DNA from: a virus
Reading direction: 5' to 3' (one strand)
DNA: 29,209 nt
Virus record (IMG/VR): IMGVR_UViG_3300023243_000398
Coordinates: 1 to 29,209 of that record
Shown: in pieces, positions 5,128-21,515 of the stretch
Numbering within the stretch: position 1 is the first letter of the stretch
Layout of the letters: each line of letters opens with the position of its first letter
Notes under the pieces: generated by a model
Database searches by the model: none
What the model was told of the DNA's origin: nothing
Seen by the model: only the letters and a program-made list of their open reading frames with translations
Made by a program: the position numbers and the translations under genes

Positions 5128-5800
5128 TGTAATTTTTATAAGTTATAATGAAATCAATGCAGAAAAAAACTGGAGTGATTTAAAAACAAAGGTTCCGTAT
5201 GCTGTGCGAATTTACGGAGTTAAAGGTATACACCAAGCACACATCGCCGCAGCCAACTTAGCAACAACTCCTATGGTGTGGATAGTAGATGCTGATGCAG
5301 TTATGTTAGATGACTTTAATTTTGATTATATTCCGCCTCGAGCAGAAAGAGACAATGTACACGTATGGCATAGTAAGAATCCCATTAATGACTTAGAGTA
5401 CGGATATGGTGGAGTTAAACTATTCCCAAGGCTTGCTACTATTAATATGAATACAAGTAAATCTGATATGACTACGAGTATATCAGATAAGTTTAAATTG
5501 ATGCCACAAGTGTCAAATATTACAGCGTTTAATACTGACGAATTTAGTACTTGGCGTAGTGCGTTTAGGGAGTGTGCTAAACTTGCTAGCAAAACTATTA
5601 AAGGGCAAGTAGATGAAGAAACAGAACAGCGTCTTGATATTTGGTGTACAGTTGCTAACAATCAAGCAGATTTCGCAGAATATGCTATTAGTGGTGCTTG
5701 TGCCGGACGTGAATATGGACATGCTAATAGCAATAATTTAGACGCTCTTAAACTAATAAATGATTTTGATTGGTTAGAACAACAATTTAAAGAGGCATAA
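5120..5800 (+). CDS. glycosyltransferase-like protein (DAD motif), paralogue of the gene at 2858
   Basis: 226 residues from the ATG at 5120. A longer frame from GTG at 5108 exists, but GAGA at 5110-5113 lies 6 nt before the ATG, and starting there gives MYDVIFISYNEINAEKNW, which lines up with the start of the paralogue at 2858. IVDADAV carries DxD at about 57-59; YGYGGVK follows near 94-100, then STWRSAFRECAKLA. Same predicted role as the 2858 protein: GT-A-like sugar transfer, acceptor unknown. It overlaps the radical SAM gene by 8 nt. Its 3' end overlaps the 3' end of the minus-strand gene at 5787 by 14 bp, so the two operons collide without a visible terminator. Confidence 0.65.
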   Translation: MYDVIFISYNEINAEKNWSDLKTKVPYAVRIYGVKGIHQAHIAAANLATTPMVWIVDADAVMLDDFNFDYIPPRAERDNVHVWHSKNPINDLEYGYGGVKLFPRLATINMNTSKSDMTTSISDKFKLMPQVSNITAFNTDEFSTWRSAFRECAKLASKTIKGQVDEETEQRLDIWCTVANNQADFAEYAISGACAGREYGHANSNNLDALKLINDFDWLEQQFKEA

Positions 5801-6419
5801 ATTTACCTACAAGCATATAACGTATACCCCTAGTATCTTTTATCTCGTCTTCAAATAATACTTTTGCATGTTCTGGCATTTGGTCTTTAAACTCTTCTAA
5901 ACTATTAACACAGTTTATATGCCCTTCAATATTATACATATTATTTGAAGTAAATGCAAAATATGCTTTAGATGTTTTTAATGCATCTAACGTTTTCATA
6001 GAAGGCATGTGTTCGCAAGAAGGATTAATTATAAGATCAGCGTTCATAATTCTTCCGTGTCTTTTTTTGTCAAACACATCACTTGCTATATAATCAACAT
6101 TATTATAATGACTAAACAACCTGTTTTTTGCTATTTTTAAAACTTGTTCGTCTAGATCAATACAAGATATACGGCTCACCTTATCACAGAGTCCAGGGAT
6201 AAGAATACTTCCATACCACGATCCAAAAATTACCACTTCTGATTTTTTAGTAACAACATTTAATTTACCAATGTAATCTAAAACTTTTGTTTTTGATTTA
6301 AATTGATTATCACTAAATGAATCAATAACATCTTGCGAACTCTCTGGTTTATCTTTTATTAAATTTAGAACATTTTTAAATAAATCTAAACTAACGGTGT
6401 TATTATCTATGTCAATCAT
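5787..6419 (-). CDS. class I SAM-dependent methyltransferase-like protein
   Basis: 210 residues. Residues 62-71 (VVIFGSWYGS) form a motif-I-like strand and Gly-containing loop, ISCIDLDEQ at 85-92 ends in acidic residues that would hold the ribose of SAM, and YIASDVF at 110-116 has the aspartate of the next motif. A NPSCEHM segment at 132-138 takes the place of the usual motif IV. This is the pattern of a Rossmann-fold methyltransferase, though motif I is degenerate, and substrate specificity cannot be seen. It is the last gene of the minus-strand operon, overlapping the carbamoyltransferase gene by 8 nt, so methylation of the same product is plausible. A non-methylating SAM-binding role cannot be excluded. 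Confidence 0.6.
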   Translation of the reverse strand: MIDIDNNTVSLDLFKNVLNLIKDKPESSQDVIDSFSDNQFKSKTKVLDYIGKLNVVTKKSEVVIFGSWYGSILIPGLCDKVSRISCIDLDEQVLKIAKNRLFSHYNNVDYIASDVFDKKRHGRIMNADLIINPSCEHMPSMKTLDALKTSKAYFAFTSNNMYNIEGHINCVNSLEEFKDQMPEHAKVLFEDEIKDTRGIRYMLVGKFMPL

Positions 6420-7923
6420 TGTCTTTCCTAACTATATAATCATCAATTACTAGTATGTCTAATCCGCATTTTTTAAATGTAGCAACAGCATCTTCGGGAG
6501 TTTCAACAATAGGCTCTTGACAGTTGAAGCTAGTGTTAAGCAACATAGGAACACCTGTAATCTTATAAAACTCGTTAATCAAATCATAATAACGTTCATT
6601 AAACTCTCTAGTTACGGTCTGTATACGTGCCGTACCGTCTATGTGTGTCACACCTGGAATAGCCGCTGACGTAACTGGCATAATACGACTCATGTATGGT
6701 GATGGTTGATTAGTAGCAAAATATTCTTGATAATGTTCTTCTAGTACACTAGGAGCAAATGGACGAAAGTCTTCACGCAGTTTAATCTTACTGTTTATAA
6801 TATCTTTTATATTAGGATTGCGTGGATCAGCAAGTATGCTACGATTGCCTAGTGCTCTATTACCGCTTTCGCTAGCACCCTGGAACCAACCAACAATTGC
6901 ACCATTTGCAATTGCACCAGCAACTTTGGTGTAGATTTCATCCATTGGCTTTTGTTGATATTGTAACCCTTCAAAGATACTAGAGCTAACCGTATATTCT
7001 TTTCCTGCATATACACTAGGTACATGGACATTACCATTTAAAATATAATCAGCATGCATATATGTACCAAGCGACTGTCCTTCGTCACCAGCAGCGGGGG
7101 GAACGTGTATATTTGTATAATGTTTTGTAAATTCTTCATTTATATAACCGTTATACGCAACGCCTCCTGCGATACAAAGATTATCAGATGTTTTAAGAGG
7201 ATATACATGTTTCTTAACAAGTTCAAACGTAACTTGCTGCAATGTAAACGCTACATCTTGTTTAGGCACACGTTTTAGAATATCTTTTGCACCATCTGGA
7301 AGTCTATGATTGGGATTTTCTAAATACTGATGAATCATAGTATAAATTTCAGTATTATGCTTTCCAAAGCCTACTAAGCCCATAACCTTACCAGCATCGA
7401 GATATCCAAAACCGACATCCTGTGCTAGTCTATTCCATAGTCCGCCTATTGAGATTTTGTTGTTTAAGTTAGTAATTGTACCGTGTTTGTCAATAAAGAT
7501 GCAGTTAAATTGCCATCCTCTGCCATCGATAGCAAGTATATCGCTTTCTTTATATCCTGAACTTAGATATGCATAGGTAGCATGACTTTGATGGTGATCA
7601 ATATAATAGTAGCTATCTGTATGTAGTCTATCCCACAAGTTAGTTGGAGTAAACTCTAAAAAATTAGTATCGGGTAATGTTTCCTGAAGCAAGTCAATTA
7701 CAAATTCTTGTCCTAGATTAGAAACAGTAAACGCAAACACATGATCTTTATTATAGTTAGGCACAAAATGATCATGAAAAAACTCTCTGCTATAAGTAAT
7801 GTCGTGCGGGTTTTCACGATTAAGATTATGCTTGCGACGGCTATGCCGTTCTACTTGATTGTGAAATACACCATCGTACGTGTTATGATCATGTATGTTT
7901 ACTGCTATAGAAAAGATTTTCAT
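6412..7923 (-). CDS. O-carbamoyltransferase of the NodU/CmcH/TobZ family
   Basis: 503 residues, close to the length usual for short members. The N-terminal ASKHA-type domain shows HHQSHATYAYL at 110-120 and AIDGRGW after it, then AGGVAYNGY at 252-260 and PPAAGDEGQSLG at 275-286. The C-terminal family block is clear: GWFQGASESGNRALGNRSI from 345, REDFRPFAPSV at 383-393, TARIQTV at 431-437 and LNTSFNCQEPIVETP from 462. Family members use carbamoyl phosphate and ATP to make carbamoyl-adenylate and pass the carbamoyl group to a hydroxyl of a sugar or antibiotic. The usual EFGPRALGNR is ESGNRALGNR here. It overlaps 4 nt with the radical SAM gene upstream. Together with the aminotransferase and glycosyltransferases it points to a decorated sugar. 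Confidence 0.92.
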   Translation of the reverse strand: MKIFSIAVNIHDHNTYDGVFHNQVERHSRRKHNLNRENPHDITYSREFFHDHFVPNYNKDHVFAFTVSNLGQEFVIDLLQETLPDTNFLEFTPTNLWDRLHTDSYYYIDHHQSHATYAYLSSGYKESDILAIDGRGWQFNCIFIDKHGTITNLNNKISIGGLWNRLAQDVGFGYLDAGKVMGLVGFGKHNTEIYTMIHQYLENPNHRLPDGAKDILKRVPKQDVAFTLQQVTFELVKKHVYPLKTSDNLCIAGGVAYNGYINEEFTKHYTNIHVPPAAGDEGQSLGTYMHADYILNGNVHVPSVYAGKEYTVSSSIFEGLQYQQKPMDEIYTKVAGAIANGAIVGWFQGASESGNRALGNRSILADPRNPNIKDIINSKIKLREDFRPFAPSVLEEHYQEYFATNQPSPYMSRIMPVTSAAIPGVTHIDGTARIQTVTREFNERYYDLINEFYKITGVPMLLNTSFNCQEPIVETPEDAVATFKKCGLDILVIDDYIVRKDND

Positions 7924-8759
7924 ACAGATTCTTGCTCTACCTTTAGGATTTCAATGATGCGTTCTCGTTGTGCTTCTGGACGTTTTGGAATAATATCAAA
8001 ACAACGTTCGCAATACTTTTCGTAGTCAAACAATTGATAGTTCATCATCTTATCAATGTTTTCTTTAGTAACATCAAACTGTCTAGAACCGTTGATTACT
8101 TTTCTACTACAGTGACGAATTTTCTTAATTTCAAAATCAAATACCGGAACTAGCGGAAACTTAGCACAAACACGACGATCAATTTCGGGTGCTTGTACAG
8201 GTGTATGGTCTTTAAAGAAGTCAGGGGATCTTGAATTGTATTCCTTAAACTCGGTGTTCTTATGTTTGAGATATGACAAGTCGTGTTTATCTCGATAGTT
8301 AAAGTAACCAGGAGTCTCGATAATTAAGTTATAATTGTTTAGATCATTTGGTTCAAAGAAATCATAATTGCCTAACTTCTCAATTCGATCTTCATAAAAG
8401 TCTAATACCAAATGTTCGATGTAAATGATTTCTGGATCTTCTAATACTTCGGGGTAAAACTTACGAATTAAAGAATTTGAAAGAACTTGGACAACAAGAT
8501 TAGGATGCTTTTTAATTTCAGCAATAATTTCTTGTAAGTTTTTAACAAGAGCAGGTTCGCCTCCTAATAAACAAATGCGTGTCTTATACGGAGCAAGACC
8601 TTCTAAGATAGTTCTTACGAAATCCATATCTACATCTAGATTCCGCATTTCTAATGTCCATGCAGTACAATAGTGACAACTCTTATTACAACTCTTTGTC
8701 ATATAAAAGTCTACAGTACGATATTCTGAACCTTTTAAATCTTCAAGTGTCAATGCCAT
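7920..8759 (-). CDS. radical SAM protein with C-terminal auxiliary Cys cluster
   Basis: 279 residues. C24-x3-C28-x2-C31 (SCNKSCHYC) is the SAM-cluster motif, and LLGGEPA follows with GGEP at 66-69. Four later Cys (C198, C217, C250, C253, the last two as YCERC) look like a short twitch/SPASM-type auxiliary Fe-S site. Enzymes of this build often act on peptides or on small polar substrates through a deoxyadenosyl radical; the substrate is unknown here. It overlaps the nitroreductase-like gene by 17 nt upstream and the carbamoyltransferase by 4 nt downstream, so it is fully embedded in the operon. The sequence is quite unlike the other three radical SAM proteins of the window beyond the core motif, so it is not a recent duplicate. 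Confidence 0.88.
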   Translation of the reverse strand: MALTLEDLKGSEYRTVDFYMTKSCNKSCHYCTAWTLEMRNLDVDMDFVRTILEGLAPYKTRICLLGGEPALVKNLQEIIAEIKKHPNLVVQVLSNSLIRKFYPEVLEDPEIIYIEHLVLDFYEDRIEKLGNYDFFEPNDLNNYNLIIETPGYFNYRDKHDLSYLKHKNTEFKEYNSRSPDFFKDHTPVQAPEIDRRVCAKFPLVPVFDFEIKKIRHCSRKVINGSRQFDVTKENIDKMMNYQLFDYEKYCERCFDIIPKRPEAQRERIIEILKVEQESV

Positions 8760-9477
8760 TAATAGTTACCTTTGTATATTTTTTAAAAGTTGGAAATTTC
8801 CAGTGTTCATCTAATTCGCCTGTTCTAAACTTCTCTGGTACATCTTTATTTAACACGTCTGTATGTTGAGTACGTTCAAGATGGCTATTTGGAAATCCTA
8901 CACCTACAAGTAATTTAGGATTTTGTTTTATTCCTAGTATATCACGTATCGGTTTTGTATCTAATGCTGAACAAATACCTGTTGTATACCCTAACAATCC
9001 TGCTGAAAGTATAAGTTCACCAACAGAAATCCCCATTGAGTACGCGACTTGTTCTCCGTATACTTTTGCCGCATTACTATTTGGATTTTCTTTAGCAGCT
9101 CTATGTTGACTTCCTCGAGTGTCTCCGTGCTCTGCAACATATACAAATAGTGCATTAGCATATACTTGCGAGTTGGTTACTGATTTGGCATCATTCTGTA
9201 TAAAGACATCGTTTTCTACACTAAAACTTTCGTCTTGATCTTGTTGATCTCTAATCATTGTAAACTTTTTTGTATGACTGTATATTTGTTTAATTATATT
9301 CTGGTCAGTGTATACGTGTAAACTATAGTGTGTTTCGTTTTGTTTTGTTGGAGAATTAATAACAGTATGTATAAGTGTATCTAAATCTTCTTGAGGTATA
9401 GATTTAGTTAGGTCATAATTACGTTGTGCCCTGTTAGTAATTTTAGAAGCATTTTTTATTTGATCTCTTATATCCAT
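8743..9477 (-). CDS. nitroreductase-fold FMN protein, third of a tandem trio
   Basis: 244 residues. The start has Arg residues before the first long helix (NRAQRNYDL, 15-23), then SPTKQN at 42-47, the place where family members hold FMN phosphate and ring (SPS-x2-N). The central helix GISVGELILSAGLLGYTTG (149-167) is the classic nitroreductase segment, followed by LLVGVGFPN at 189-197. Known members move hydride from NAD(P)H through FMN to nitro groups, quinones or ene/azoline substrates. The substrate is unknown here. It overlaps the second nitroreductase-like gene by 10 nt. It is the closest of the three to ordinary nitroreductases in the central helix; an extra segment at about 75-105 is specific to it. 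Confidence 0.85.
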   Translation of the reverse strand: MDIRDQIKNASKITNRAQRNYDLTKSIPQEDLDTLIHTVINSPTKQNETHYSLHVYTDQNIIKQIYSHTKKFTMIRDQQDQDESFSVENDVFIQNDAKSVTNSQVYANALFVYVAEHGDTRGSQHRAAKENPNSNAAKVYGEQVAYSMGISVGELILSAGLLGYTTGICSALDTKPIRDILGIKQNPKLLVGVGFPNSHLERTQHTDVLNKDVPEKFRTGELDEHWKFPTFKKYTKVTINGIDT

Positions 9478-10133
9478 TTTAATATCTCTTCCAAATTTGG
9501 TTTAAGGTCATCAGCAAATCTTAATTCAGTTACTTTATTTCTTCTTGGTACATCACAGTAGCCCATAGCCCCAATTAATATGGGATTGTGTTTAATTATT
9601 GGAAGTGTAGACCATTTTTCAACTTTACTAGGAAAGCAACCGGTGTAATTAACTTGCATTCCTTTTTCTAAAGCAAACGCAGATAAGTTAGCCGCAAACA
9701 ATCCTACTTCAATTGCGGCAGGTCTTATTACATCAGATAGTTGTGATTCATGCATTTGTTCATAGTGATTATTTTCATTATCGATAGTTTTTTGTACAAA
9801 CGGATTAGGGTTACCTACTCGTTGACTAAAAATAATTGTGTAGGGAGCGTCTTTTAAATAAAGGAAGTTTGGATTATCACCTTCCTCTGTATGCCCTTTA
9901 GTAGCATTTTGATTATGAGATTTTTTGTTTCCTCTAGCCAAATTTAATAAAGCAAGTTTTTCTTGTTTAGCATTGGGTCCTAGTATAGTAATTTCATAAG
10001 GCATAAAGTTATTCTTTGACGGCGTTACTTTCCAGGCTTTAAATAATATTTCTTCTATGTCACTCTGAGGCGGAACATCTTCTTTAAATCGGTATACATG
10101 TTTTCTTGAATCTAAAAGTTGTAACATATCCAT
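9468..10133 (-). CDS. nitroreductase-fold FMN protein, second of a tandem trio
   Basis: 221 residues. SRKHVYRF at 9-16 gives the basic FMN-phosphate residues, VTPSKNN at 36-42 the second FMN loop, and EVGLFAANLSAFALEKGM (about 142-159) the long dimer helix; PILIGAMGY at 184-192 is the closing strand. The stretch WSTLPIIKHNPILIGAMG is matched by WSSLPEITESPIIIVQIG in the next gene upstream, so these two are closer to each other than either is to the third. Role: FMN-dependent oxidoreductase with unknown substrate. One base of overlap (TAATG) joins it to the gene at 10133, and 10 nt to the gene at 8743. An obligate heteromer of the three subunits is possible. Confidence 0.82.
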   Translation of the reverse strand: MDMLQLLDSRKHVYRFKEDVPPQSDIEEILFKAWKVTPSKNNFMPYEITILGPNAKQEKLALLNLARGNKKSHNQNATKGHTEEGDNPNFLYLKDAPYTIIFSQRVGNPNPFVQKTIDNENNHYEQMHESQLSDVIRPAAIEVGLFAANLSAFALEKGMQVNYTGCFPSKVEKWSTLPIIKHNPILIGAMGYCDVPRRNKVTELRFADDLKPNLEEILKWI

Positions 10134-10921
10134 TATTTGTTAAACCTTACTACATCATCTAAATTAGGTTTGTTTTCCCAGTGTATATCATTAGGATTCA
10201 TACTATTACTAGCAAAATAATCATCAACATCGGCTACATGTCCTATTTGTACAATTATAATAGGAGACTCAGTGATTTCAGGTAAACTACTCCAATCTAG
10301 CCCGTTTTTATTTTTGTCTTTACTGTATTCTCCACTATTACCTTTCCAAACCCATTCGGGAAAAGATTTAATATACGAAATTGCTAAGTCATTTTCTAAA
10401 CAAAGACCGGCTAAACATTTTATAAACATACCAATCTCAACACATGCTAGTGCTTTATTAGCATTTCCTCTAAATCTTTTTGGATCAATTTGAGTAAATC
10501 TATTGTAATCGTTGTGTAGCTTAGAATATTCTTTTATAAAGTTATTTGCTTCGCATAGTCTTTGTTCAAATACTAATATCCAAGGTGATATACGCATATC
10601 ATTGCCTTCGTCGTCTAATACATAATCTTTAACATTAATAGTACCTGCTGCTGATTTAATCATACCGTCTTTATTTTCACTGTCCATGTGATTGACTGAA
10701 CCAGTTTTATATAAGGAACAAATTTGTCCAATAATTTGTTTCTTTTCTAGATCATTAGGTCCATATGCATGAATCTTGAATGGAAACATATTTTGCTTTG
10801 ACGGAGCAATTTTCATTGTTCGTTCTAATATATCCTGTATTGTTTCTTTTGACGGCAACCTTTTTTGGTCCCAGGCCGCTCTAATTTGTCTTCTTTTGCC
10901 AAAAAGTTTTTCAATACTCAT
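10133..10921 (-). CDS. nitroreductase-fold FMN protein, first of a tandem trio
   Basis: 262 residues, the most divergent of the trio. GKRRQIR at 8-14 and APSKQN at 39-44 occupy the FMN-binding positions; VEIGMFIKCLAGLCLEN (from 161) is the central helix and PIIIVQIG (220-227) the closing strand. Insertions near 70-110 and 190-210 lengthen it. Role as a flavin oxidoreductase is inferred; substrate unknown. AGGAGAG just ahead of the ATG gives a strong ribosome site. Its ATG overlaps the stop of the aminotransferase gene (ATGA, 10918-10921). If one of the three lost catalysis, this one, with Ile-Arg instead of a Tyr/Ser-Arg pair at the N-terminus, is a candidate. Confidence 0.8.
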   Translation of the reverse strand: MSIEKLFGKRRQIRAAWDQKRLPSKETIQDILERTMKIAPSKQNMFPFKIHAYGPNDLEKKQIIGQICSLYKTGSVNHMDSENKDGMIKSAAGTINVKDYVLDDEGNDMRISPWILVFEQRLCEANNFIKEYSKLHNDYNRFTQIDPKRFRGNANKALACVEIGMFIKCLAGLCLENDLAISYIKSFPEWVWKGNSGEYSKDKNKNGLDWSSLPEITESPIIIVQIGHVADVDDYFASNSMNPNDIHWENKPNLDDVVRFNK

Positions 10922-11991
10922 ATTTCTCTCCTAACAATATTTATGACCTGCTCTATTTCGTCATTTGTAAGCCAAGCATGTATGGGCAGTGATAAAACTG
11001 TATTAGAGGCCGTCTTAGACTGCGTACAAGCGTCTCTCCTGCACTCTAAGCCGTCATACATACTGTTTGCACTCAACGGTGTTTCGTAGTGTATACTAGC
11101 ATTTAACGCATTCTTTACACGTTTACGGGTATCTTTATCTTCAAATCGCACTACATACTTATGGTAGTTATGATTAAGTCCATTGGACATTAGCTGTGTT
11201 ACTACGGGCAACTCTGCAAACGCTTGATTGTATTTGTGTGCTATTTGTTGTCTACGTTCTTGATTACGATCAGCATGACGTAATCGTAGGTTAATTATTT
11301 CCGCATTAAGCACATACATACGACTGTTGTATCCAATCATACTAAAGTCTTTATCTTTGCCATGACGCCTAGTCATCCTAACACGTTTAGCAATGTCTTC
11401 GTTATCAGTTAGTACAACTCCGCCACCATTTATACCTGCAATTACTTTATTTGAATTAAAACTATATACACTACAGTCTCCGATAGTACCTGCCCTTATA
11501 TTATGTAAACTACTACCCAAACTTTGTGCGGCATCTTCAATAAACAGTATATTGTTATCTTTGCAGAACTGTTGTATTTCTGTAGTGTCAGTCATATTAC
11601 CAAATAGGTGCGGATATATAATTGCTTTAACTTTATTACTATACATACGTTTGATGCTATTTAAACTAATATGATATGAATCTAAATCAATATCACAAAA
11701 TACAGGAGTAGCACCTACCATACTTGCACAAGCTGAACTTGATATCCAACTAAAGTCTGTTACTAGAACTTCATCACTGGATCCTATGCTGTGTGCTAAC
11801 AATGTAAAATGTAGTGCGTCTGTAGCACTTGCCACACTAACACAATACTTGCGACCCACGCGGTCTGCAAAGTCCCGTTCAAATTGCTCGTTGTTTTCAT
11901 AATTCATTTGACTCATAAATCGATCAAATGCTTCTAAATAGTCTTGTTTGTTTTCTTGGTACTCTCGGTCCCAGCCATCATATGCTATCAT
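10918..11991 (-). CDS. DegT/DnrJ/EryC1/StrS-type PLP aminotransferase
   Basis: 357 residues, normal for the family. VSVASATDALHFTLLA at 51-66 is the PLP-phosphate region, IEDAAQSLGS at 151-160 carries the pyridine-binding Asp (D153), and SVYSFNSNKVIAGINGGGV includes the predicted Schiff-base Lys, K182. MTRRHGKDKD follows at the usual place. Family members put an amino group on a keto sugar attached to a nucleotide, for O-antigens, glycan caps or antibiotic sugars. No dehydratase or epimerase for making the keto sugar is found in the window, so the substrate would come from the host or elsewhere in the phage. It meets the radical SAM gene by one base (TAATG) and the first nitroreductase by ATGA. 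Confidence 0.93.
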   Translation of the reverse strand: MIAYDGWDREYQENKQDYLEAFDRFMSQMNYENNEQFERDFADRVGRKYCVSVASATDALHFTLLAHSIGSSDEVLVTDFSWISSSACASMVGATPVFCDIDLDSYHISLNSIKRMYSNKVKAIIYPHLFGNMTDTTEIQQFCKDNNILFIEDAAQSLGSSLHNIRAGTIGDCSVYSFNSNKVIAGINGGGVVLTDNEDIAKRVRMTRRHGKDKDFSMIGYNSRMYVLNAEIINLRLRHADRNQERRQQIAHKYNQAFAELPVVTQLMSNGLNHNYHKYVVRFEDKDTRKRVKNALNASIHYETPLSANSMYDGLECRRDACTQSKTASNTVLSLPIHAWLTNDEIEQVINIVRREI

Positions 11992-12728
11992 TAGTCGCTT
12001 TGTCCTCTTCTGTGCCAGGCCATAAGTTGTTGTGATTTATGTGCCCATATTTCTCTTTTAATATATTTTTCTAAATGTTCGTCGCTAGGCTTAGTTAATT
12101 GAAAGTCTACATTCTTTCTTAAAATAGGGTTATTTGCGTTAAATCCTCTGTTTGTGTTAACTAGCAGTAATGCAAAGTCTTCTTCTTTGGCAATTTCGAT
12201 TGCTCTTTCAACTTCGTGCTCGTTATAGCCGAAGATAATATATTGCCAAACAATAGTATGACCTAGGTCTCTGCCTTGTTTCATGCGTTTCCATACGTCG
12301 TCGAAGTTTGATCCTATGCGATAAAGCTCGCTCTTTTTGTCAATGCCATCTACTCCAAAGTACCAGGCATTCTCACCTACACCGTAGCTGAATGCTTCGT
12401 CCCACCACTCGTCACTCTTGCCACTGCCTACAGTAGCAATCCTAACCTTCTTGCCCTTACCGTCGCATATTTTTAGTAAGTTTAAAAAGTTAGCATGATA
12501 TATTGGATCAGATATTTGCCCACAGAATGTTATACCATTGTCATAGTAGTCAAATATCTTTTGAAAGTTTTCTTCAGTTAGATCAAAGGATCGTCTTATT
12601 TGATCTTGACTGATAATTTTTTGTCGTATGCATTGCGGGCACTGAAATATACATCTATGAGAAGCATCGATATTAGGTCTTACTTTACGCTGGTGTATTG
12701 CGTAATCGTCAGTTATTCTTGATATCAA
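11991..12728 (-). CDS. radical SAM core protein without its own auxiliary domain
   Basis: 245 residues. C26-x3-C30-x2-C33 (RCIFQCPQC) is the SAM-cluster motif. CGQISDPIYH at 69-78 stands where most relatives have GGEP, a variation seen in some SPASM enzymes. The protein ends after the core barrel, and the Cys-rich part expected at the C-terminus is instead encoded by the gene just upstream (12709-13062). The start is a TTG at 12728; AGGGGG lies 7 nt before it and no later Met exists before the Cys motif, so TTG is the only sound choice. The gene overlaps the SPASM-like gene by 20 nt. Substrate unknown; neighbours suggest a sugar-derived or peptide intermediate. Confidence 0.85.
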   Translation of the reverse strand: MISRITDDYAIHQRKVRPNIDASHRCIFQCPQCIRQKIISQDQIRRSFDLTEENFQKIFDYYDNGITFCGQISDPIYHANFLNLLKICDGKGKKVRIATVGSGKSDEWWDEAFSYGVGENAWYFGVDGIDKKSELYRIGSNFDDVWKRMKQGRDLGHTIVWQYIIFGYNEHEVERAIEIAKEEDFALLLVNTNRGFNANNPILRKNVDFQLTKPSDEHLEKYIKREIWAHKSQQLMAWHRRGQSD

Positions 12729-14022: not shown

Positions 14023-14586
14023 ATGAAAGTAATTACGTTGCATGATTTTGGTGAAGACCGTTTTTTAAAAGAATTAAAAACATTTAGTGAACAAAACTTT
14101 AGTGGCGATAACCGAAACCGAGATTGGTTTCTGCGTATACCGCAAATATATAAAACTCGATTTAAGGAATGGTTCTTTCTTGTAGACAATAACGAGCTAA
14201 TTGCATTTGCAACAATTCAAGAGTTCTATTCAGGTTGCTACAGACTTCTAACCCGCACATACTATAATCCCGCTTATAGAAGAACCCACTTAGCATACGA
14301 ACATAATAAAAAAACACCTGCAATGTATTTGTTAGATAAACAAATAGAATATTTAACAGATTATAAAACATTGTTTATTTCTATGCAGGATATTAATCGA
14401 CGAAAGATTCTTACAAAAGTTATGAATAAAATAGGCGGCAGTTGGAAACTTCATCCTAATATGGTACAAACTTGTAAAGAAGTAGCAGATAAAAACTGCT
14501 GGCAGAATATTATTTTTACCGGTGAATCTGTCAATCTTCCTAACATTACTATTAATAAATGGAAAAAAATGAAAGGAACTATTTAA
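14023..14586 (+). CDS. GNAT-like acetyltransferase fold protein (tentative)
   Basis: 187 residues. Residues 51-66 (FFLVDNNELIAFATIQ) followed by CYRLLTRTYYNPAYRR (72-87) have the hairpin and strand order of the GNAT core, in which a cofactor-binding strand comes after. A later helix and NRRKILTKVMNKIGG (around 125-140) could be the acceptor side. The classic Q/R-x-x-G-x-G/A acetyl-CoA loop is not obvious, so this is only a fold suggestion. It is the first gene behind the late promoter; the ribosome site is weak (GAAAG). It ends just before the next ATG without spacing, so it belongs to the operon. Confidence 0.5.
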   Translation: MKVITLHDFGEDRFLKELKTFSEQNFSGDNRNRDWFLRIPQIYKTRFKEWFFLVDNNELIAFATIQEFYSGCYRLLTRTYYNPAYRRTHLAYEHNKKTPAMYLLDKQIEYLTDYKTLFISMQDINRRKILTKVMNKIGGSWKLHPNMVQTCKEVADKNCWQNIIFTGESVNLPNITINKWKKMKGTI

Positions 14587-15219
14587 ATGTCAAGCAGTTT
14601 ATATTCTATGCTTACAAACTACGGATCTATTATTATGTTAAAAAATAAATTAAGTCATACAAATAAATTTGTAGAATGGACCGAAGACACTTTTAATTAT
14701 GTACAATATAATCCTAGAAAAAAAATTGAAAGATTTGGACTTAGTCTTACTAGTTTAGACGGCGGCGTAACAGGCGTGCCTGACTTAGATAGTCTAAAAG
14801 AATATAATAAAGAACACAATACTAACCATACCGAACACGATTTCAATGTTCCAACTTCTGTATTAGAACACGATAAGCTAAAACAGTTTGTTGAGCCTAT
14901 TAAGAATAATATTTTTAGAAGTCATATTTTAAAATTGAATCCAGGCGGATACTTTCCCCCTCACCGTGATTATTACGGAACAGACTTTGGAAGTTTTAGA
15001 ATCATTGTACCTTTGCAAAACTGTAATCCTCCTAAATTTAACTTTGTAATAGAAGATAAGATACTACACTGGGAAACAGGACATATGTACTTTATGAATA
15101 CTGCAAAAACACATTATTTGTTTAATGCTAGTTTTGATCCTAGTTATTGGATTGTGTTTAATGTAAAAACAATAAAGGAAACTGTAGACTTTGTAATTAG
15201 AAATGTAGAGTTTGGATAA
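14587..15219 (+). CDS. 2OG-Fe(II) oxygenase-like (aspartyl hydroxylase-type cupin) protein
   Basis: 210 residues. LNPGGYFPPHRDYYG (117-131) gives an H126-x-D128 pair after a strand, FRIIVPL at 137-142 follows, and GHMYFMNTAKTHYLFN (165-180) provides the distal H176. This is the double-stranded beta-helix layout of Fe(II)/2-oxoglutarate hydroxylases, closest in order to the aspartyl/asparaginyl hydroxylase-like group. The 2-oxoglutarate-binding Arg cannot be fixed by eye. Likely reaction: hydroxylation of a C-H bond on an unknown substrate. Relatives of this type occur in many marine T4-like phages. The gene begins with the base after the previous stop and overlaps the next gene by one base (TAATG). 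Confidence 0.78.
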   Translation: MSSSLYSMLTNYGSIIMLKNKLSHTNKFVEWTEDTFNYVQYNPRKKIERFGLSLTSLDGGVTGVPDLDSLKEYNKEHNTNHTEHDFNVPTSVLEHDKLKQFVEPIKNNIFRSHILKLNPGGYFPPHRDYYGTDFGSFRIIVPLQNCNPPKFNFVIEDKILHWETGHMYFMNTAKTHYLFNASFDPSYWIVFNVKTIKETVDFVIRNVEFG

Positions 15220-15908
15220 TGAAGTTTGGACCTACACATACAATTTTTGATAGTTTTGACTCCCAATGGTGTTTAGAACAATGTCAACAAATCATTAATA
15301 ACTTTCCAATGACTGAGTCAAGTAACATAAGCGGTAAGTTTTTTCATACTTACAAAACTTGGCACTTTCACAAAACAAGTCAAATACCCATTATTAAAGA
15401 ATTTAATAATGTTGTAGAAAAACATAAACACCAATTTGAAAAAGTCTATAACAAGCCTCTAGAAATTGATTGGGTTGTGTTAGCATACACATCTGATGAC
15501 AGCAAAGAAATGAGTGTATGGCATAAAGATAGATATTATTTAGACGGACAGTTTCATATTACAGTTCAAGGAAATGCAAACATAGATATAGACAAAGACG
15601 GCAAAGTTTTTAATCTCCAAATTCCTAACGGAACTGCTTGGTATTTAAATGCTACGCATTATTATCATAAAATTCGTACAGGCAAGGGTAACGAAAGATT
15701 TGAATTAACTGCTCCTGTAAATATGCGTCCAGAATTGCGTGAATGGAAACTTAAAGCAAATCCTAATGATAAATGGCAACACGTTAAAGGAGATAATCCG
15801 GAATATGTTAAGTACAAAGAATTTTTAGTAAAGGGACAAGAACAAGCGGTGAGAGACGGAACAGCAAGTAATATAAGTGTTGCATATCCAGTAGATCTTC
15901 AGCCATAG
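15219..15908 (+). CDS. 2OG-Fe(II) oxygenase-like protein
   Basis: 229 residues. MSVWHKDRYYLDGQFHI holds H102-x-D104, IPNGTAWYLNATHYYHKI supplies the distal His (H150, with H147 nearby), and GNERFELTAPV gives R160 ten residues later, the usual place for the 2-oxoglutarate Arg. The set H-x-D, H, R is complete, so an active Fe(II)/2OG hydroxylase is likely, substrate unknown. The C-terminal 55 residues (after about 175) are a charged extension of no known role. It is joined to the gene before by TAATG. It is clearly different in sequence from the neighbouring 2OG-like proteins, so the operon holds distinct enzymes rather than copies of one. Confidence 0.78.
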   Translation: MKFGPTHTIFDSFDSQWCLEQCQQIINNFPMTESSNISGKFFHTYKTWHFHKTSQIPIIKEFNNVVEKHKHQFEKVYNKPLEIDWVVLAYTSDDSKEMSVWHKDRYYLDGQFHITVQGNANIDIDKDGKVFNLQIPNGTAWYLNATHYYHKIRTGKGNERFELTAPVNMRPELREWKLKANPNDKWQHVKGDNPEYVKYKEFLVKGQEQAVRDGTASNISVAYPVDLQP

Positions 15909-15930
15909 AAGATTTTAGGTAAATACTTAC

Positions 15931-16647
15931 ATGGAGAATACGACAAAATTATTATTAAATCACTTGTTTAGTCATTTAATGCTTATTCCTGCATTTATGT
16001 ATGGCGAGTGGTGGATGTTTCTTGCAGGATTTTTATGGTGGCAAGTTATTGCTATTGTAGCAATAAGTGGAGGCTACCATAGATACTACAGTCATAAAAC
16101 TTTTAGTGCCAGGCGTTGGTATGATTACACAGTTAATATATTAGGAATATTCAGCGGCGCTGGCCCTGCAATGACTTGGGCAGGAACACACCGTCAGCAC
16201 CATGCATACAGCGACACAGAGAATGATCCCCATAGCTATACCCGTAAAGGATGGTTTGCAGTTTATGTAAACACATGGGGGTATGATTTTAAAATTAAAC
16301 GTCGATTTATTAAACGCTTATTGAGTGATAAACTGCTACGATGGTTTTACACTAATTATTTTAAACTTAATATTGCTATTATTGTTGTACTTTCTATTAT
16401 TGATCCATTACTTATGATATTTGGTTATGCAGTGCCGGTTGTACTAGCGTTCCACGGTTACGGATTACTTAATGTTCTAGGACATAGAGGCGGCAAGCCT
16501 AACAATACTTGGCTAGGTAATATATTAACAGCAGGCGAAGGATGGCATGCTAATCATCATAAACGCGGCGGCGACTATAGAATTGGATGGGCCTGGTGGC
16601 AACTAGATCCCACTGCTTGGTTTATAAGAATAATTAGGACCAATTAA
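15931..16647 (+). CDS. membrane fatty acid desaturase (acyl-CoA/lipid Delta9-type)
   Basis: 238 residues. All three histidine boxes for the diiron centre are present: H50-RYYS-H55, H87-RQ-HH91 followed by SDTENDPHS, and GEGWHANHH with H206 and H209-H210. Several hydrophobic spans surround them (about 15-45, 65-82, 145-180), as for a four-helix membrane enzyme. GHRGGKPNN (184-192) fits the additional His ligand of the acyl-CoA type. It uses O2 and two electrons to put a cis double bond in an acyl chain in the membrane; the electron donor would be host ferredoxin. It is somewhat short for the family. Desaturases are known auxiliary genes in marine cyanophages. The ribosome site is weak. Confidence 0.93.
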   Translation: MENTTKLLLNHLFSHLMLIPAFMYGEWWMFLAGFLWWQVIAIVAISGGYHRYYSHKTFSARRWYDYTVNILGIFSGAGPAMTWAGTHRQHHAYSDTENDPHSYTRKGWFAVYVNTWGYDFKIKRRFIKRLLSDKLLRWFYTNYFKLNIAIIVVLSIIDPLLMIFGYAVPVVLAFHGYGLLNVLGHRGGKPNNTWLGNILTAGEGWHANHHKRGGDYRIGWAWWQLDPTAWFIRIIRTN

Positions 16648-17306
16648 TGGATTTTACTTTTGCAGCATTTGATGTTGGCGTTACAGATAGCGACTGCCGA
16701 GATATGTTAAAAGAATTTTTGTCCATCCCGGACGAATATTATTCTACTAATAGTTTTAGAGGTTGTAGAATTTTACATGTTTATAACGGTTTAGGCGTTA
16801 GAAACCAACGTGAAGGATCTAACAAAGGCAAGTTTAAGTATACTGATATAGAATCGTATATACCTAAAACAAAAAAAATATTAGACAAAAAAATATTTCC
16901 TTGGATGGATCCGATAGGTAGAGTAAACATTTTACGAACACTGCCTGGTGAAGGACTAAATGTTCATTTAGATGCAACCGAGAAAGAAATTGGTACAAGA
17001 CAACATAAGTATAGGCTTGTATTAAATGGTAATATAGATAAACTATTCTTTCTTGATGCAACTGGTAATAAGGTATATGTACCACAATGTTATAATAGCT
17101 ATGTACTAGACGGTACTCATCCTCATAGTTTAGATCCAGGTACTGAAGAAAAAATAACAATCTGCTTTGGTAAACCGTGGGACGGAAAGCCAACTCCGCA
17201 ATATAAGAAGTTTATAGACAACTCATTATTTACTATGAAGGTTAGCAGACCATTAGACTTTGATCAAAGTTGGGTAGATCCGTATTTTAATAGAGAAAAA
17301 AAATGA
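16647..17306 (+). CDS. 2OG-Fe(II) oxygenase-like protein
   Basis: 219 residues. LPGEGLNVHLDATE (99-112) carries H107-x-D109, HKYRLVLNGN (120-129) is the next strand, and VLDGTHPHSLDPGTEEKITI holds the distal His (H158 or H160). A basic residue, K169, lies about where the 2-oxoglutarate Arg/Lys is expected. The prolyl/aspartyl hydroxylase-like beta-helix order is complete, so a hydroxylase is likely; substrate unknown. One base overlaps the desaturase gene (TAATG) and four bases overlap the next gene (ATGA, 17303-17306). Coupled to the desaturase, it could act on a lipid as well as on a glycan; the sequence does not decide. Confidence 0.75.
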   Translation: MDFTFAAFDVGVTDSDCRDMLKEFLSIPDEYYSTNSFRGCRILHVYNGLGVRNQREGSNKGKFKYTDIESYIPKTKKILDKKIFPWMDPIGRVNILRTLPGEGLNVHLDATEKEIGTRQHKYRLVLNGNIDKLFFLDATGNKVYVPQCYNSYVLDGTHPHSLDPGTEEKITICFGKPWDGKPTPQYKKFIDNSLFTMKVSRPLDFDQSWVDPYFNREKK

Positions 17307-18673
17307 AAGTAGCATTAGTTTCTATGCCTAGCCAGAATTATTGGCATCCTGCACCTAGTATTGTGTTTTTAAAAGGAGTGCTCAACCGCGAAAGTATTGA
17401 TAGTACATGTTTTGATTTAAATCATGCGTTCCTTGCAAAATTCGGCGATGCTGCAATAAACTGGTGTGAGTCTGGAGACAACTATAACCCGGGTTACAAA
17501 ACATTTATAGAAGACTATTCTAAATGCTTTAAAGGATATGATTGGATAGGAGCAAGTGTCTTTACCTTTAATAGTCAGATATTTACAAAGTTATTTTTAG
17601 AAGTAGTTAGAGAAATGTATCCTACTATTAAAATAGTATTAGGCGGAGCAGGAATGACAAGTAATCATTCAAATGTTAATTTTATTACTAAAGATTTTGG
17701 CGATGATATGATAAGTAAAGGTCTTGCTGATTATATTTTAACGGGCGAGGGTGACAGAGCTTTACCTGCGTTATTAAATGGTAATAATTATTTTTTCCCA
17801 CAAATGGACGACTTATCAAATATGCCTATACCAGACTATAGTGATATTGATTTTAGTCTTTATTCTAAACCAACTCTTATTGTTACAGGAAGTAGAGGGT
17901 GTGTAAGACAGTGTACTTTTTGTGATGTCCATTCTAATTGGAAAAAATATAAATTTCGTCCTGGCGAAGATGTTGCAAATGAAATCATTCATCAATATTA
18001 CACTTACGGAGTGAAGCATTTTCATTTTAGCGATAGCTTAGTAAACGGAAGTTTAAAAGAGTTTAGAGTATTCTGTAAAACATTAGCTGAAGCAAAGTTA
18101 CCAATTGAATGGCGCGGCCAATTTATATTTCGAAGTGGTATGACTGATGACGACTGGGATAACATAGCAGCCAGCGGATGTAAAGGTTTGTGGATAGGTA
18201 TTGAAAGCGGAAGTGACATTGTGCGATGGCATATGAAGAAAAAGTTTTCTAATATAGACATGTATAAAAGTATAGAAGCACTTGGTAGGCGAAAAATTAA
18301 TATGCTATACTTATTAATAGTTGGGTATCCAACAGAAACCGAAAAAGATTTTGATGACACTCTTGAGTTGTTGCGTCGGTCTGTAGCTTATAAAAGATAT
18401 GTTGAAGTACGTTGTAATATTGCAATGTTACTACCAAATACCGAAATATATGATGAATTTTATCTGCATCACGGCGATGATCATCTATGGAAAACACAAA
18501 CTACTGACGGGATACTAACATATAAAGTTAGGTACGAGAGATGGAAAAAAGTAAATATGCTTGTAGAAAATTTAGGATTAAAAAGTGACAAGCGTATTAA
18601 ACAATTAGAAAAAGTAATACTTCGAAATATAGAGAAAGAAGATAGCAGAGTAATATGGCCAAAACATGTTTGA
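17303..18673 (+). CDS. B12-binding-type radical SAM protein
   Basis: 456 residues. The N-terminal part (about 1-170) is a Rossmann-like domain with the order of cobalamin-binding radical SAM proteins: VALVSMPSQNYWHPAPSIVF, GYDWIGASVFTFNSQ, IVLGGAGMTSN and LTGEGDRALPALL. The DxHxxG cobalamin motif is not visible, as in many of this group. The radical SAM core begins at C200-x3-C204-x2-C207 (GSRGCVRQCTFCDVH), then KKYKFRPGEDV and GLWIGIESGSD. Known members methylate sp3 carbons or rearrange rings; the substrate here is unknown. It overlaps the previous gene by ATGA and the next by 19 nt. No auxiliary Cys cluster is seen near the end. Confidence 0.9.
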   Translation: MKVALVSMPSQNYWHPAPSIVFLKGVLNRESIDSTCFDLNHAFLAKFGDAAINWCESGDNYNPGYKTFIEDYSKCFKGYDWIGASVFTFNSQIFTKLFLEVVREMYPTIKIVLGGAGMTSNHSNVNFITKDFGDDMISKGLADYILTGEGDRALPALLNGNNYFFPQMDDLSNMPIPDYSDIDFSLYSKPTLIVTGSRGCVRQCTFCDVHSNWKKYKFRPGEDVANEIIHQYYTYGVKHFHFSDSLVNGSLKEFRVFCKTLAEAKLPIEWRGQFIFRSGMTDDDWDNIAASGCKGLWIGIESGSDIVRWHMKKKFSNIDMYKSIEALGRRKINMLYLLIVGYPTETEKDFDDTLELLRRSVAYKRYVEVRCNIAMLLPNTEIYDEFYLHHGDDHLWKTQTTDGILTYKVRYERWKKVNMLVENLGLKSDKRIKQLEKVILRNIEKEDSRVIWPKHV

Positions 18674-19311
18674 TAAAAAACTCTCGTAGAAGCAGAGTAA
18701 AAGGTACAGGACCAAGAAGGCACGAAATGCTAACACATGGTGTTGTTTCATCTGATGTACCACAAGAAGTAATAGACGAGATATTACAAATTGCTAATAC
18801 ATATAATGAAAATGATCTAAGAGGTGATAATTATCAAATTTCACAACACTGTGATGTAGATGAAGCCTTTACTTCGTCTACTACTTATAGGCAGATATTA
18901 TTACAAGAATTAAATGACGATTCAGACGACGAAATAGACGAGAAAAATTACATTCGTTGGCGTAGTGACATAACTACTAATAGAATACAAAAATATCTTA
19001 ACCATGCATTTAAAACACCATACAGGGCTCGTATAAGCATTATGCACGGCGGCAACGAACTAAACTATCACATAGACACTGATACTAGTGTACTGTGCCG
19101 TGTACAAATACCAGCATTGGCACACGGAAGTTTGTTCCAATGGAAAACAAAAACAGAAGAAGTTAGTTTAGATATGCAATCAGGCAAAGCATATTTTGTT
19201 AATACAGGATGGTTACATAGAGTAATTAATCTAACAGATGGCATCCGTATTGTTTTATTATTTGGCGTAGACTACAACAATATTCCAGAGAAAGAAAGTT
19301 TGTTAGTATGA
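18655..19311 (+). CDS. 2OG-Fe(II) oxygenase-like protein
   Basis: 218 residues. GGNELNYHIDTDTSVLCRV gives H139-x-D141 and R149 on the next strand; GKAYFVNTGWLHRVINL supplies H188, and DGIRIVLLFGVDY has R198 ten residues later, the expected 2-oxoglutarate Arg. The Fe(II) triad and cosubstrate Arg are complete. The first 25 residues are basic (KNSRRSRVKGTGPRRHE) and not part of the beta-helix. An acidic loop (NDDSDDEIDE, 87-96) is specific to this protein. Role: hydroxylation or related oxidation, substrate unknown. It overlaps the radical SAM gene by 19 nt and the following gene by ATGA (19308-19311). Confidence 0.78.
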   Translation: MAKTCLIKNSRRSRVKGTGPRRHEMLTHGVVSSDVPQEVIDEILQIANTYNENDLRGDNYQISQHCDVDEAFTSSTTYRQILLQELNDDSDDEIDEKNYIRWRSDITTNRIQKYLNHAFKTPYRARISIMHGGNELNYHIDTDTSVLCRVQIPALAHGSLFQWKTKTEEVSLDMQSGKAYFVNTGWLHRVINLTDGIRIVLLFGVDYNNIPEKESLLV

Positions 19312-20033
19312 AAGTTATAGCAAACGGTTGGCAATTTAATACAGATCGTATGAAAGCTGAGTTGCAAAATATAATTAATCTAACAAGTACTGTGCATGCA
19401 GATGGGTTAACTGGTATAAGTCTTACATCAAGAACAGGAGACATATTAAGTGGATTTGAATATACTCCTAAGATTATGTATCCTCCCTTTCACACTCAGC
19501 TTATGACAGAAGAATATCCCAAAATATTTTTTGATTTAGATATTTGCAAAACTATTCCTGTGTATCATATGCTTGATTATGATGTACCGACACCGGCACT
19601 TACTGGATACTTTAAAGAGATACACAATTTCTTAGTAGCAAATAATTGTAATCCTAGACGCATGAGATTATCATGTTTAACCCCTGGCAGAACTATTCCT
19701 AAGCATAGTGACGGCGGCGGGTTCAAATTACATATTCCTATAGTAACAGATCCAGATGTTGTGTTCAATGTTAACAATAAAAACTATATATTAGAAGAAG
19801 GTAACGTATACATAGTAGATGTAGGAGTTCATCATTTTTATGTTAACAATTCAGATATAGATCGTTGGCATTTAATTTGTGATGTATATGATACAGGACA
19901 CAATTTTGAGATAGGAAATTATACTCAAGAAGAATTTGAAATAGAAAAAGAAAATGCAGACTTGTGGCGTACATGGGTAGACGGCACAAGGACTCAGGGC
20001 CCACATCGTATTCGGTTAGGAGAAAAAAATTGA
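19308..20033 (+). CDS. aspartyl/asparaginyl beta-hydroxylase-like 2OG oxygenase
   Basis: 241 residues. LTPGRTIPKHSDGGGFKLHI (124-143) is typical of the aspartyl/asparaginyl beta-hydroxylase family, with H133-x-D135 and H142; VDVGVHHFYVNNSDIDRWHL adds the distal His pair (H175-H176) and R186. Family members hydroxylate the beta carbon of Asp or Asn side chains in peptides, or related amino acids in antibiotics, using Fe(II) and 2-oxoglutarate. If this phage protein keeps that taste, its target would be a peptide or an amino-acid-like group. The C-terminal 45 residues are acidic then basic. It overlaps 4 nt with the gene before, and its own end carries the ribosome site and TTG start of the next gene. 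Confidence 0.82.
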   Translation: MKVIANGWQFNTDRMKAELQNIINLTSTVHADGLTGISLTSRTGDILSGFEYTPKIMYPPFHTQLMTEEYPKIFFDLDICKTIPVYHMLDYDVPTPALTGYFKEIHNFLVANNCNPRRMRLSCLTPGRTIPKHSDGGGFKLHIPIVTDPDVVFNVNNKNYILEEGNVYIVDVGVHHFYVNNSDIDRWHLICDVYDTGHNFEIGNYTQEEFEIEKENADLWRTWVDGTRTQGPHRIRLGEKN

Positions 20034-20857
20034 GTGTACATGTTGAAACAGATATTAACTTTAATAGTGTAACAGACAATGAAATTAAAGAATTTGGTAG
20101 AAATATTGTAAGAGATAATATTGTAATAGTACGTAACCAAGAACTTAGTGAGTCTAGAATTTTACACATATGCGAAACCATTGGTAACGTACTAAAGCCT
20201 AAACAATTTTTTATGCATCCAGATTATCCAGGACTATTCCGTGTTACTAATCAACGTAAAGACGGAGAAAAAATTGGCATCTTTGCAGATAAAGAACTTG
20301 ACTGGCACAGCAATGGTAACGGTCGTCCGAGCGGCAATGAAAGTTGCGTAGCGTTATATTGTGTTAAGCCTGGCAAAAACAGCGTTACTAGCTTTTGTGA
20401 CACACGCCGAGCATATAATGAGTTACCGGATGATATTAAAGAGATAGTTGATGATGTAGATTGTACATTCCAGTTTAAAAATAATACATTCTACAAACTA
20501 GAAGAAGGTGATAAAGAACTTATTATGTTTGAGAATAAGCGTATATATCCCGATGGTGTTACAAAGCCATTAGTATATAATCATCCATACGATAAGGGTA
20601 AAGGGCTATATTTTACATTTCATTACATTAGAAAAATGTGGAGACGTAGTGGTAAAGAGTTAGATCAAGAATGGCTAAAGCAATACTTACTTGATCATGT
20701 ATTTCAAGAGAAGTACATTTACCATCACAATGATTGGCAACCAGGTGACTTTATCTTTATGGACCAGTTCCATAGTATACACAAAAGAAATGAAGTCGAA
20801 GGAGATCGATTTCTTTATAGAATAAGTTTTGATTATGAAGGAAGTTTCAATGAATAA
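20030..20857 (+). CDS. TauD/TfdA-family dioxygenase-like protein with H-x-N site
   Basis: 275 residues from a TTG at 20030. The frame could be read from ATG 19964, but that would overlap the preceding gene by 70 nt, whereas AGGAG at 20018-20022 lies 7 nt before the TTG and the TTGA overlaps the previous stop. The family features are LDWHSNGNGRPSG (H93 with N95 in the place of the usual Asp), SCVALYCVKPGKNSVTSFCD, and DFIFMDQFHSIHKRN followed by RFLYRISFDY, giving H251 as distal ligand and R264 (or R260) for 2-oxoglutarate. Known members cleave taurine or phenoxy substrates or hydroxylate amino acids. The Asp-to-Asn change could weaken or alter iron binding. Confidence 0.82.
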   Translation: MSVHVETDINFNSVTDNEIKEFGRNIVRDNIVIVRNQELSESRILHICETIGNVLKPKQFFMHPDYPGLFRVTNQRKDGEKIGIFADKELDWHSNGNGRPSGNESCVALYCVKPGKNSVTSFCDTRRAYNELPDDIKEIVDDVDCTFQFKNNTFYKLEEGDKELIMFENKRIYPDGVTKPLVYNHPYDKGKGLYFTFHYIRKMWRRSGKELDQEWLKQYLLDHVFQEKYIYHHNDWQPGDFIFMDQFHSIHKRNEVEGDRFLYRISFDYEGSFNE

Positions 20858-21515
20858 TTTTAGATATATATTTGAAGACAGATTTGCAGAAACAAAAGGT
20901 TACGAAGGCTTCGCTGCAGACAAAGAAGAAATTAATCACTTTTTTGAAACTAAAGTAAAAGGTAAAATAGCTGATCATTCTAATGTAGGTGTTGATTCAA
21001 AAAATCAACACATTTATAATCTTTGTTATGATTGTAACATGCCTGTATGGGAAGAATTGTATCAGCGTGTTGTAAATGTTGCAACAAAAAGTGGTGTAAA
21101 ATTAAATTGGGATGAAATCCGACACTGTATTAGGTTTACATTTATATGGATGCCTCCGGGAGGAAATTTAATACCCCATACTGCTAGAGCATTTAGAGCA
21201 TTAAGTGCTTTTAACATGCCTTTAAGAGGTAAAACAGAAATTAATTTTTACGAACATTTAGAAGGGCACAAACCGGGAAATAAAATTGAAACACACGAAT
21301 ATTTTAATCCTAATTTTTTAAATGTAAATAGATTTCACGGAATATATAATAACACAGATGATGAAAGAATGATATTGAAAACTCATCTAATGATAGTTCC
21401 GTGGGATAAGCTAGTTGAGAGCTATGTCGGCGACACCACTGTAAATATGTTTAATTTCACAGTTCCTTGGCAACAAATTCCAAAAGATTATCACAAATAT
21501 GACAAAGTAAAATAA
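20850..21515 (+). CDS. 2OG oxygenase-like cupin protein with H-x-A site, last gene of block 3
   Basis: 221 residues from ATG 20850; a longer frame from 20829 exists, but AAGGAAG at 20838-20844 lies 5 nt before 20850 and the overlap with the previous gene is then only 8 nt. MPPGGNLIPHTARAFRAL (101-118) resembles the first Fe strand of the aspartyl hydroxylase-like group but reads H110-T-A112 in place of H-x-D. NRFHGIYNN holds H163, and RMILKTHLMIVPW follows with R173, K177 and H179. Two His may still hold iron as in 2-His hydroxylases, or chloride may take the free site as in SyrB2-type halogenases; it may also be inactive. The operon ends here at a hairpin terminator. Confidence 0.68.
   Translation: MNNFRYIFEDRFAETKGYEGFAADKEEINHFFETKVKGKIADHSNVGVDSKNQHIYNLCYDCNMPVWEELYQRVVNVATKSGVKLNWDEIRHCIRFTFIWMPPGGNLIPHTARAFRALSAFNMPLRGKTEINFYEHLEGHKPGNKIETHEYFNPNFLNVNRFHGIYNNTDDERMILKTHLMIVPWDKLVESYVGDTTVNMFNFTVPWQQIPKDYHKYDKVK

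Follow-up and report, generated by a model that had tools for sequence, protein, structure and literature searches.

A phage family of predicted Fe(II)/2-oxoglutarate oxygenases with alanine in place of the iron-binding acid

Few natural 2-oxoglutarate (2OG) oxygenases are known to do without the acid that binds iron; the main examples are the radical halogenases and the aspartyl hydroxylase AspH. The halogenase SyrB2 carries the tripeptide HTA, the sequence around the iron-binding His of AspH reads PHTG, and in TauD the residue four past the 2OG-binding Arg (R+4), R270, contacts the substrate sulfonate. In described Fe/2OG halogenases the acid is replaced by Ala or Gly (PMC2767507, PMC13244439), and in BesD the R+4 residue (R218, N222) contacts the Fe-bound carboxylate (PMC13244439). 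The exchange alone does not create this chemistry: P4H D414A/G is no halogenase, Asp-to-Ala replacement in P4H and TauD abolishes hydroxylation with no halogenation gained (PMC2767507), and a BesD homologue did not become an efficient halogenase through Asp-to-Gly by itself (PMC13244439). Human AspH, a natural two-His hydroxylase that does not halogenate, holds a water at the acid site through D721, four residues before H725 (PMC13168262).

Here we describe a marine phage gene whose product, which we call the HTA protein, shares features with these systems. It occupies positions 20850–21515 (plus strand, ATG to stop, 221 aa) of the window, a 29,209-base IMG/VR virus record, and its segment PHTARAFRAL spans residues 109–118, with H110-T111-A112 at the putative iron site (Table 1). 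A mechanical ORF list opens the gene at TTG 20829; the ATG at 20850 fits better as the start, since a good ribosome-binding site (AAGGAAG) lies upstream and relatives begin at the same place. The protein resembles AspH (PF05118) in its predicted double-stranded beta-helix (DSBH), its predicted acid-less two-His site, its PHTA context and an Arg ten residues past the second His. In contrast with AspH, it is a short phage protein without a TPR domain and without a significant PF05118 match.

Table 1 Positions in the window of the HTA gene, its key codons and the surrounding cluster
Feature	Positions	Strand	Remarks
Rest of cluster: acetyltransferase, 2OG oxygenases (HRD, HKD, HLD), fatty-acid desaturase (PF00487), B12-type radical SAM	14023..18673	+	
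Two sibling Asp_Arg_Hydrox (PF05118) oxygenases	18655..20033	+	Ordinary HID and HSD; give the register for the acid position
TauD/TfdA-like oxygenase (PF02668)	19964..20857	+	Directly upstream of the HTA gene, 8-base overlap; WHSN, Asn codon 20312–20314
Acid-less 2OG oxygenase-like gene (HTA protein)	20850..21515	+	221 aa
PHTA motif	21174..21185	+	H110 codon 21177–21179 (predicted Fe ligand); A112 codon 21183–21185 (Asp expected)
R116	21195..21197	+	In every Ala-type member; Leu in Asn-type members
E135	21252..21254	+	Acidic in every Ala-type member, Lys in Asn-type members; possible second-sphere acid
H163	21336..21338	+	Predicted second Fe ligand; opens strand 163–166
R173	21366..21368	+	Predicted 2OG C5-carboxylate binder (H+10); opens strand 173–180
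K177	21378..21380	+	Invariant residue at R+4; may contact an anion or the substrate

Conservation of the missing acid

Relatives of the HTA protein were found on about 25 phage contigs, which form five subgroups at 33–80% identity: A (the window, L001–L006 and L019), B (L022, L034 and L035), C (L044, L045, L047 and L049), D (L051, L052 and L058) and E (L054–L057, L059–L064 and L066–L068). Two of the searches were blind to residue 112, one leaving its codon free and the other using a pattern from the second half of the protein only. Of the 22 aligned members, 20 carry Ala at position 112 and two, both from subgroup D, carry Asn, so the canonical HxD/E...H carboxylate triad is absent; the Ala members include some that were fetched with the blind patterns. 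Three codons (GCT, GCA and GCG) encode this Ala, which indicates that the residue is kept and not the codon. H110, N122, N158, H163, N167, R173 and K177 are invariant across the 22 sequences, acidity is kept most consistently at E14, D/E19, E/D135, E150 and E172, and dN/dS is 0.02–0.23 where computable. A chance or degenerate motif is ruled out by this conservation and the dN/dS values. With the site kept across five subgroups, dN/dS low and the Ala codons varying synonymously, these sequence comparisons indicate that the missing acid is not decay.

The motif of subgroup D reads PHVN (for example L051, positions 4027–4665; also L052 and L058), and the change from Ala to Asn coincides with T111 to Val, R116 to Leu, Y134 to Phe and E135 to Lys. 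The joint change is a single evolutionary event and no more than a hint that residues 111, 116, 134 and 135 make up a second shell about the open site. Acid-bearing relatives are limited to two proteins, group F (L053, positions 4649–5131; L065, positions 10209–10691), which share with the HTA family the placement of the motif, here PHVD, and the C-terminal half of the protein, but have an ordinary HxD, are only 161 aa long and show 17–19% identity. The original prediction was to be doubted if homologues with an ordinary HxD accompanied signs of lost function here; HVD occurs only in this remote, shorter group, and such signs were not seen. In a tree with group F as the outgroup, in which several forks are open and long branches occur, the Asn members are nested inside the Ala family, and Ala at position 112 thus looks ancestral.

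Sequence searches with the HTA protein gave no significant match in Pfam, PHROG, NCBIfam or the PDB (chance matches only in the last). The window protein did not match the PF05118 profile, and the best E value among 24 members was 0.13, under the gathering score. Queries from subgroups A, C, D and E and from group F (the L065 copy) retrieved no relative among the 50,697 deposited phage records of INPHARED, the window protein had none in plasmids, and narrow peptide queries found none in cellular genomes.

Predicted fold and register of the iron site

A confident AlphaFold (AF2) model of the HTA protein, computed with 22 diverse sequences, is a DSBH, an all-beta barrel (pLDDT 88.8, pTM 0.86) in which H110 closes one strand and H163 and R173 open the last two, the usual placement in a DSBH. 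In Foldseek searches of the PDB the matches are 2OG oxygenases and cupins; PiuC, prolyl hydroxylases and human AspH (7yb9; E = 3.7e-5, TM-score 0.42) are among them. TM-scores are modest overall (0.3–0.5), and no entry is named as a halogenase among the 50 matches listed. Among viral models (BFVD), giant-virus Asp/Asn beta-hydroxylases and 2OG oxygenases from phages were matched.

Profile alignment with hhalign gave scores of 27.8, 27.4 and 26.0 for the HTA family against its HxD siblings OG4, OG5 and OG1, compared with means of 13.9–14.8 and maxima of 21.1–22.0 in 40 column-shuffled controls; the OG2, OG3 and TauD profiles scored within their own nulls. All three alignments place H110 on the His and A112 on the Asp of the HxD motif, and those with OG4 and OG5 also match H163 to the second His and R173 to the 2OG-binding Arg, whereas the OG1 match is confined to the first strand. 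The predicted model, the Foldseek matches and the hhalign alignments to the PF05118-positive siblings agree on a DSBH in which two His and the 2OG-Arg follow one another in the expected sequence, and the reading of H110 as an iron ligand is supported by the register and the predicted fold. The suggestion that PHTARAFRAL is the first iron strand of an aspartyl hydroxylase-like protein in which Ala has taken the place of the acid is therefore borne out by alignment and predicted fold, and the possibility that H110 might not be the ligand fails, as it aligns with the iron-binding histidines of the siblings.

The PF05118 siblings in the window share with the HTA protein the motif order HxD/HTA followed by N....H...N.....R, but retain the acid and reach the Pfam cut-off for Asp_Arg_Hydrox (14587–15219, HRD; 18655–19311, HID; 19308–20033, HSD). 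The residue four before H163, corresponding to D721 of AspH, is Val or Thr in all HTA members, as in the HxD siblings, which indicates that the AspH arrangement is not simply copied and that a halide or another anion might occupy the acid site.

Gene cluster and candidate chemistries

The HTA gene closes a largely conserved block (14023–21515) that encodes a desaturase, an acetyltransferase, a B12-type radical SAM protein and seven 2OG-oxygenase-like proteins, six of them besides the HTA protein. In subgroups A, C and D the HTA gene is clustered with genes for a fatty-acid desaturase, an acetyltransferase and 2OG oxygenases of the OG3 and OG4 types; in subgroup B the desaturase, the acetyltransferase and OG4 were seen and OG3 was not. 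The clusters of subgroups A, B and D include the TauD-like gene, and no such neighbour was detected in subgroups C and E. Read by eye, the HTA gene of subgroup E follows a HAD-like gene and lies among glycosyltransferase-, sulfotransferase- and PhoH-like genes, a differing context which suggests that the enzyme does not belong to a single pathway.

We favour, with moderate confidence, the view that the HTA protein is an active carboxylate-less Fe(II)/2OG oxygenase of the Asp/Asn-hydroxylase-like clan that most likely hydroxylates the cluster product. Iron would be held by H110 and H163 only and 2OG by R173, and the acid site would be occupied by a small anion or, as in human AspH, by water. 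The enzyme would then act on a C–H bond of the product of the conserved cluster (desaturase, acetyltransferase, 2OG oxygenases and radical SAM). Hydroxylation is preferred because the clan contains the acid-less AspH, no halogenase is found among the 50 fold matches listed, and Ala alone is insufficient for halogenation (PMC2767507). The lack of sequence-level family membership, the missing D721 equivalent, the inactivity of P4H and TauD after Asp-to-Ala exchange and the modest TM-scores count against it. The original prediction had left halogenase, two-His hydroxylase and inactive protein side by side. An inactive protein is now unlikely, given the invariance of the other catalytic residues and strong purifying selection over about 33–80% identity, and a hydroxylase appears likelier than a halogenase, although sequence cannot decide the chemistry.

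The HTA tripeptide shared with SyrB2, and more generally the Ala or Gly for Asp beside two retained His ligands in SyrB2- and BesD-type enzymes, invites the reading that the protein is an Fe/2OG radical halogenase, in which Ala admits chloride and the cluster yields a chlorinated or brominated product. Such a role would accord with the absence of an AspH-like acid four before H163 to retain a competing water, with the joint shift of Ala, R116 and E/D135 in the one subgroup where a polar residue returns, which looks like tuning of the site, and with a cluster that looks biosynthetic in a marine setting that would provide chloride. We nevertheless consider it unlikely: besides the absence of halogenases from the listed fold matches and the insufficiency of Ala or Gly alone in P4H and the BesD homologue, AspH shares this geometry yet is no halogenase, the HTA protein has no PDB sequence match, no other halogenase feature could be demonstrated for it, and neither a carrier protein nor any other partner for halogenation was recognised among the genes of the window. 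Still less likely is the fuller version of this proposal, a phage family of Fe/2OG radical halogenases derived from the Asp/Asn-hydroxylase-like clan and working in a conserved biosynthetic cluster beside an acid-less HxN TauD-like oxygenase. If halogenation were true, the HTA protein would be a viral radical halogenase, of which we found no description in the open-access papers searched, where the viral halogenase work found was of the flavin type only.

The loss of a ligand relative to HxD relatives, and the usual position of the HTA gene next to a TauD-like gene, could also point to a non-catalytic protein that keeps the fold, perhaps with 2OG or metal binding, as a sensor or as a partner of that neighbour. 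This seems distinctly improbable, as both His, the Arg and the polar residues around them do not vary over 33–80% identity, and the gene also occurs in subgroups C and E, where no TauD-like neighbour was detected. Least probable, and drawn purely by inference from the invariant K177 at R+4, the position of the contacts described above for TauD and BesD, is that a carboxylate or phosphate of the substrate, perhaps guided by K177, fills the acid site for hydroxylation, desaturation or another oxidation.

With its fixed Ala, this phage family would join the few natural acid-less 2OG oxygenases. The Ala family, the Asn subgroup with its changes at 111, 116, 134 and 135, and the remote HVD proteins form a natural A, N, D series for probing what decides between hydroxylation and halogenation.

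The TauD-like neighbour and wider context

The protein encoded directly upstream, whose true start probably lies nearer 20018, has the motif WHSN, in contrast to the WHxD of ScoE and further TauD relatives. The Asn is present in all cluster copies read, as well as in Pelagibacter phage Mosig and the cyanophages (Prochlorococcus) P-HM2 and MED4-213. L058 has an additional TauD-like gene, and this one retains WHAD. Judged by sequence, the HSN proteins are a second acid-less 2OG oxygenase lineage, in which Asn is possibly an iron ligand, and the two adjacent acid-less oxygenases, HSN and HTA, are conserved together.

Mosig has no HTA-family match and carries a related cluster with a desaturase, Asp hydroxylases, a TauD-like protein, radical SAMs and a carbamoyltransferase, adjoining tail fibres. 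In three subgroup E contigs (L055, L063 and L064) a HAD-like gene precedes the HTA gene, overlapping it in L063 and L064, and glycosyl- and sulfotransferase-like genes follow. On the minus strand of the window, positions 5787–12728 encode, as read by eye, a carbamoyltransferase, radical SAMs, three nitroreductase-like proteins and a DegT-type aminotransferase, a set that is partly annotated in Mosig.
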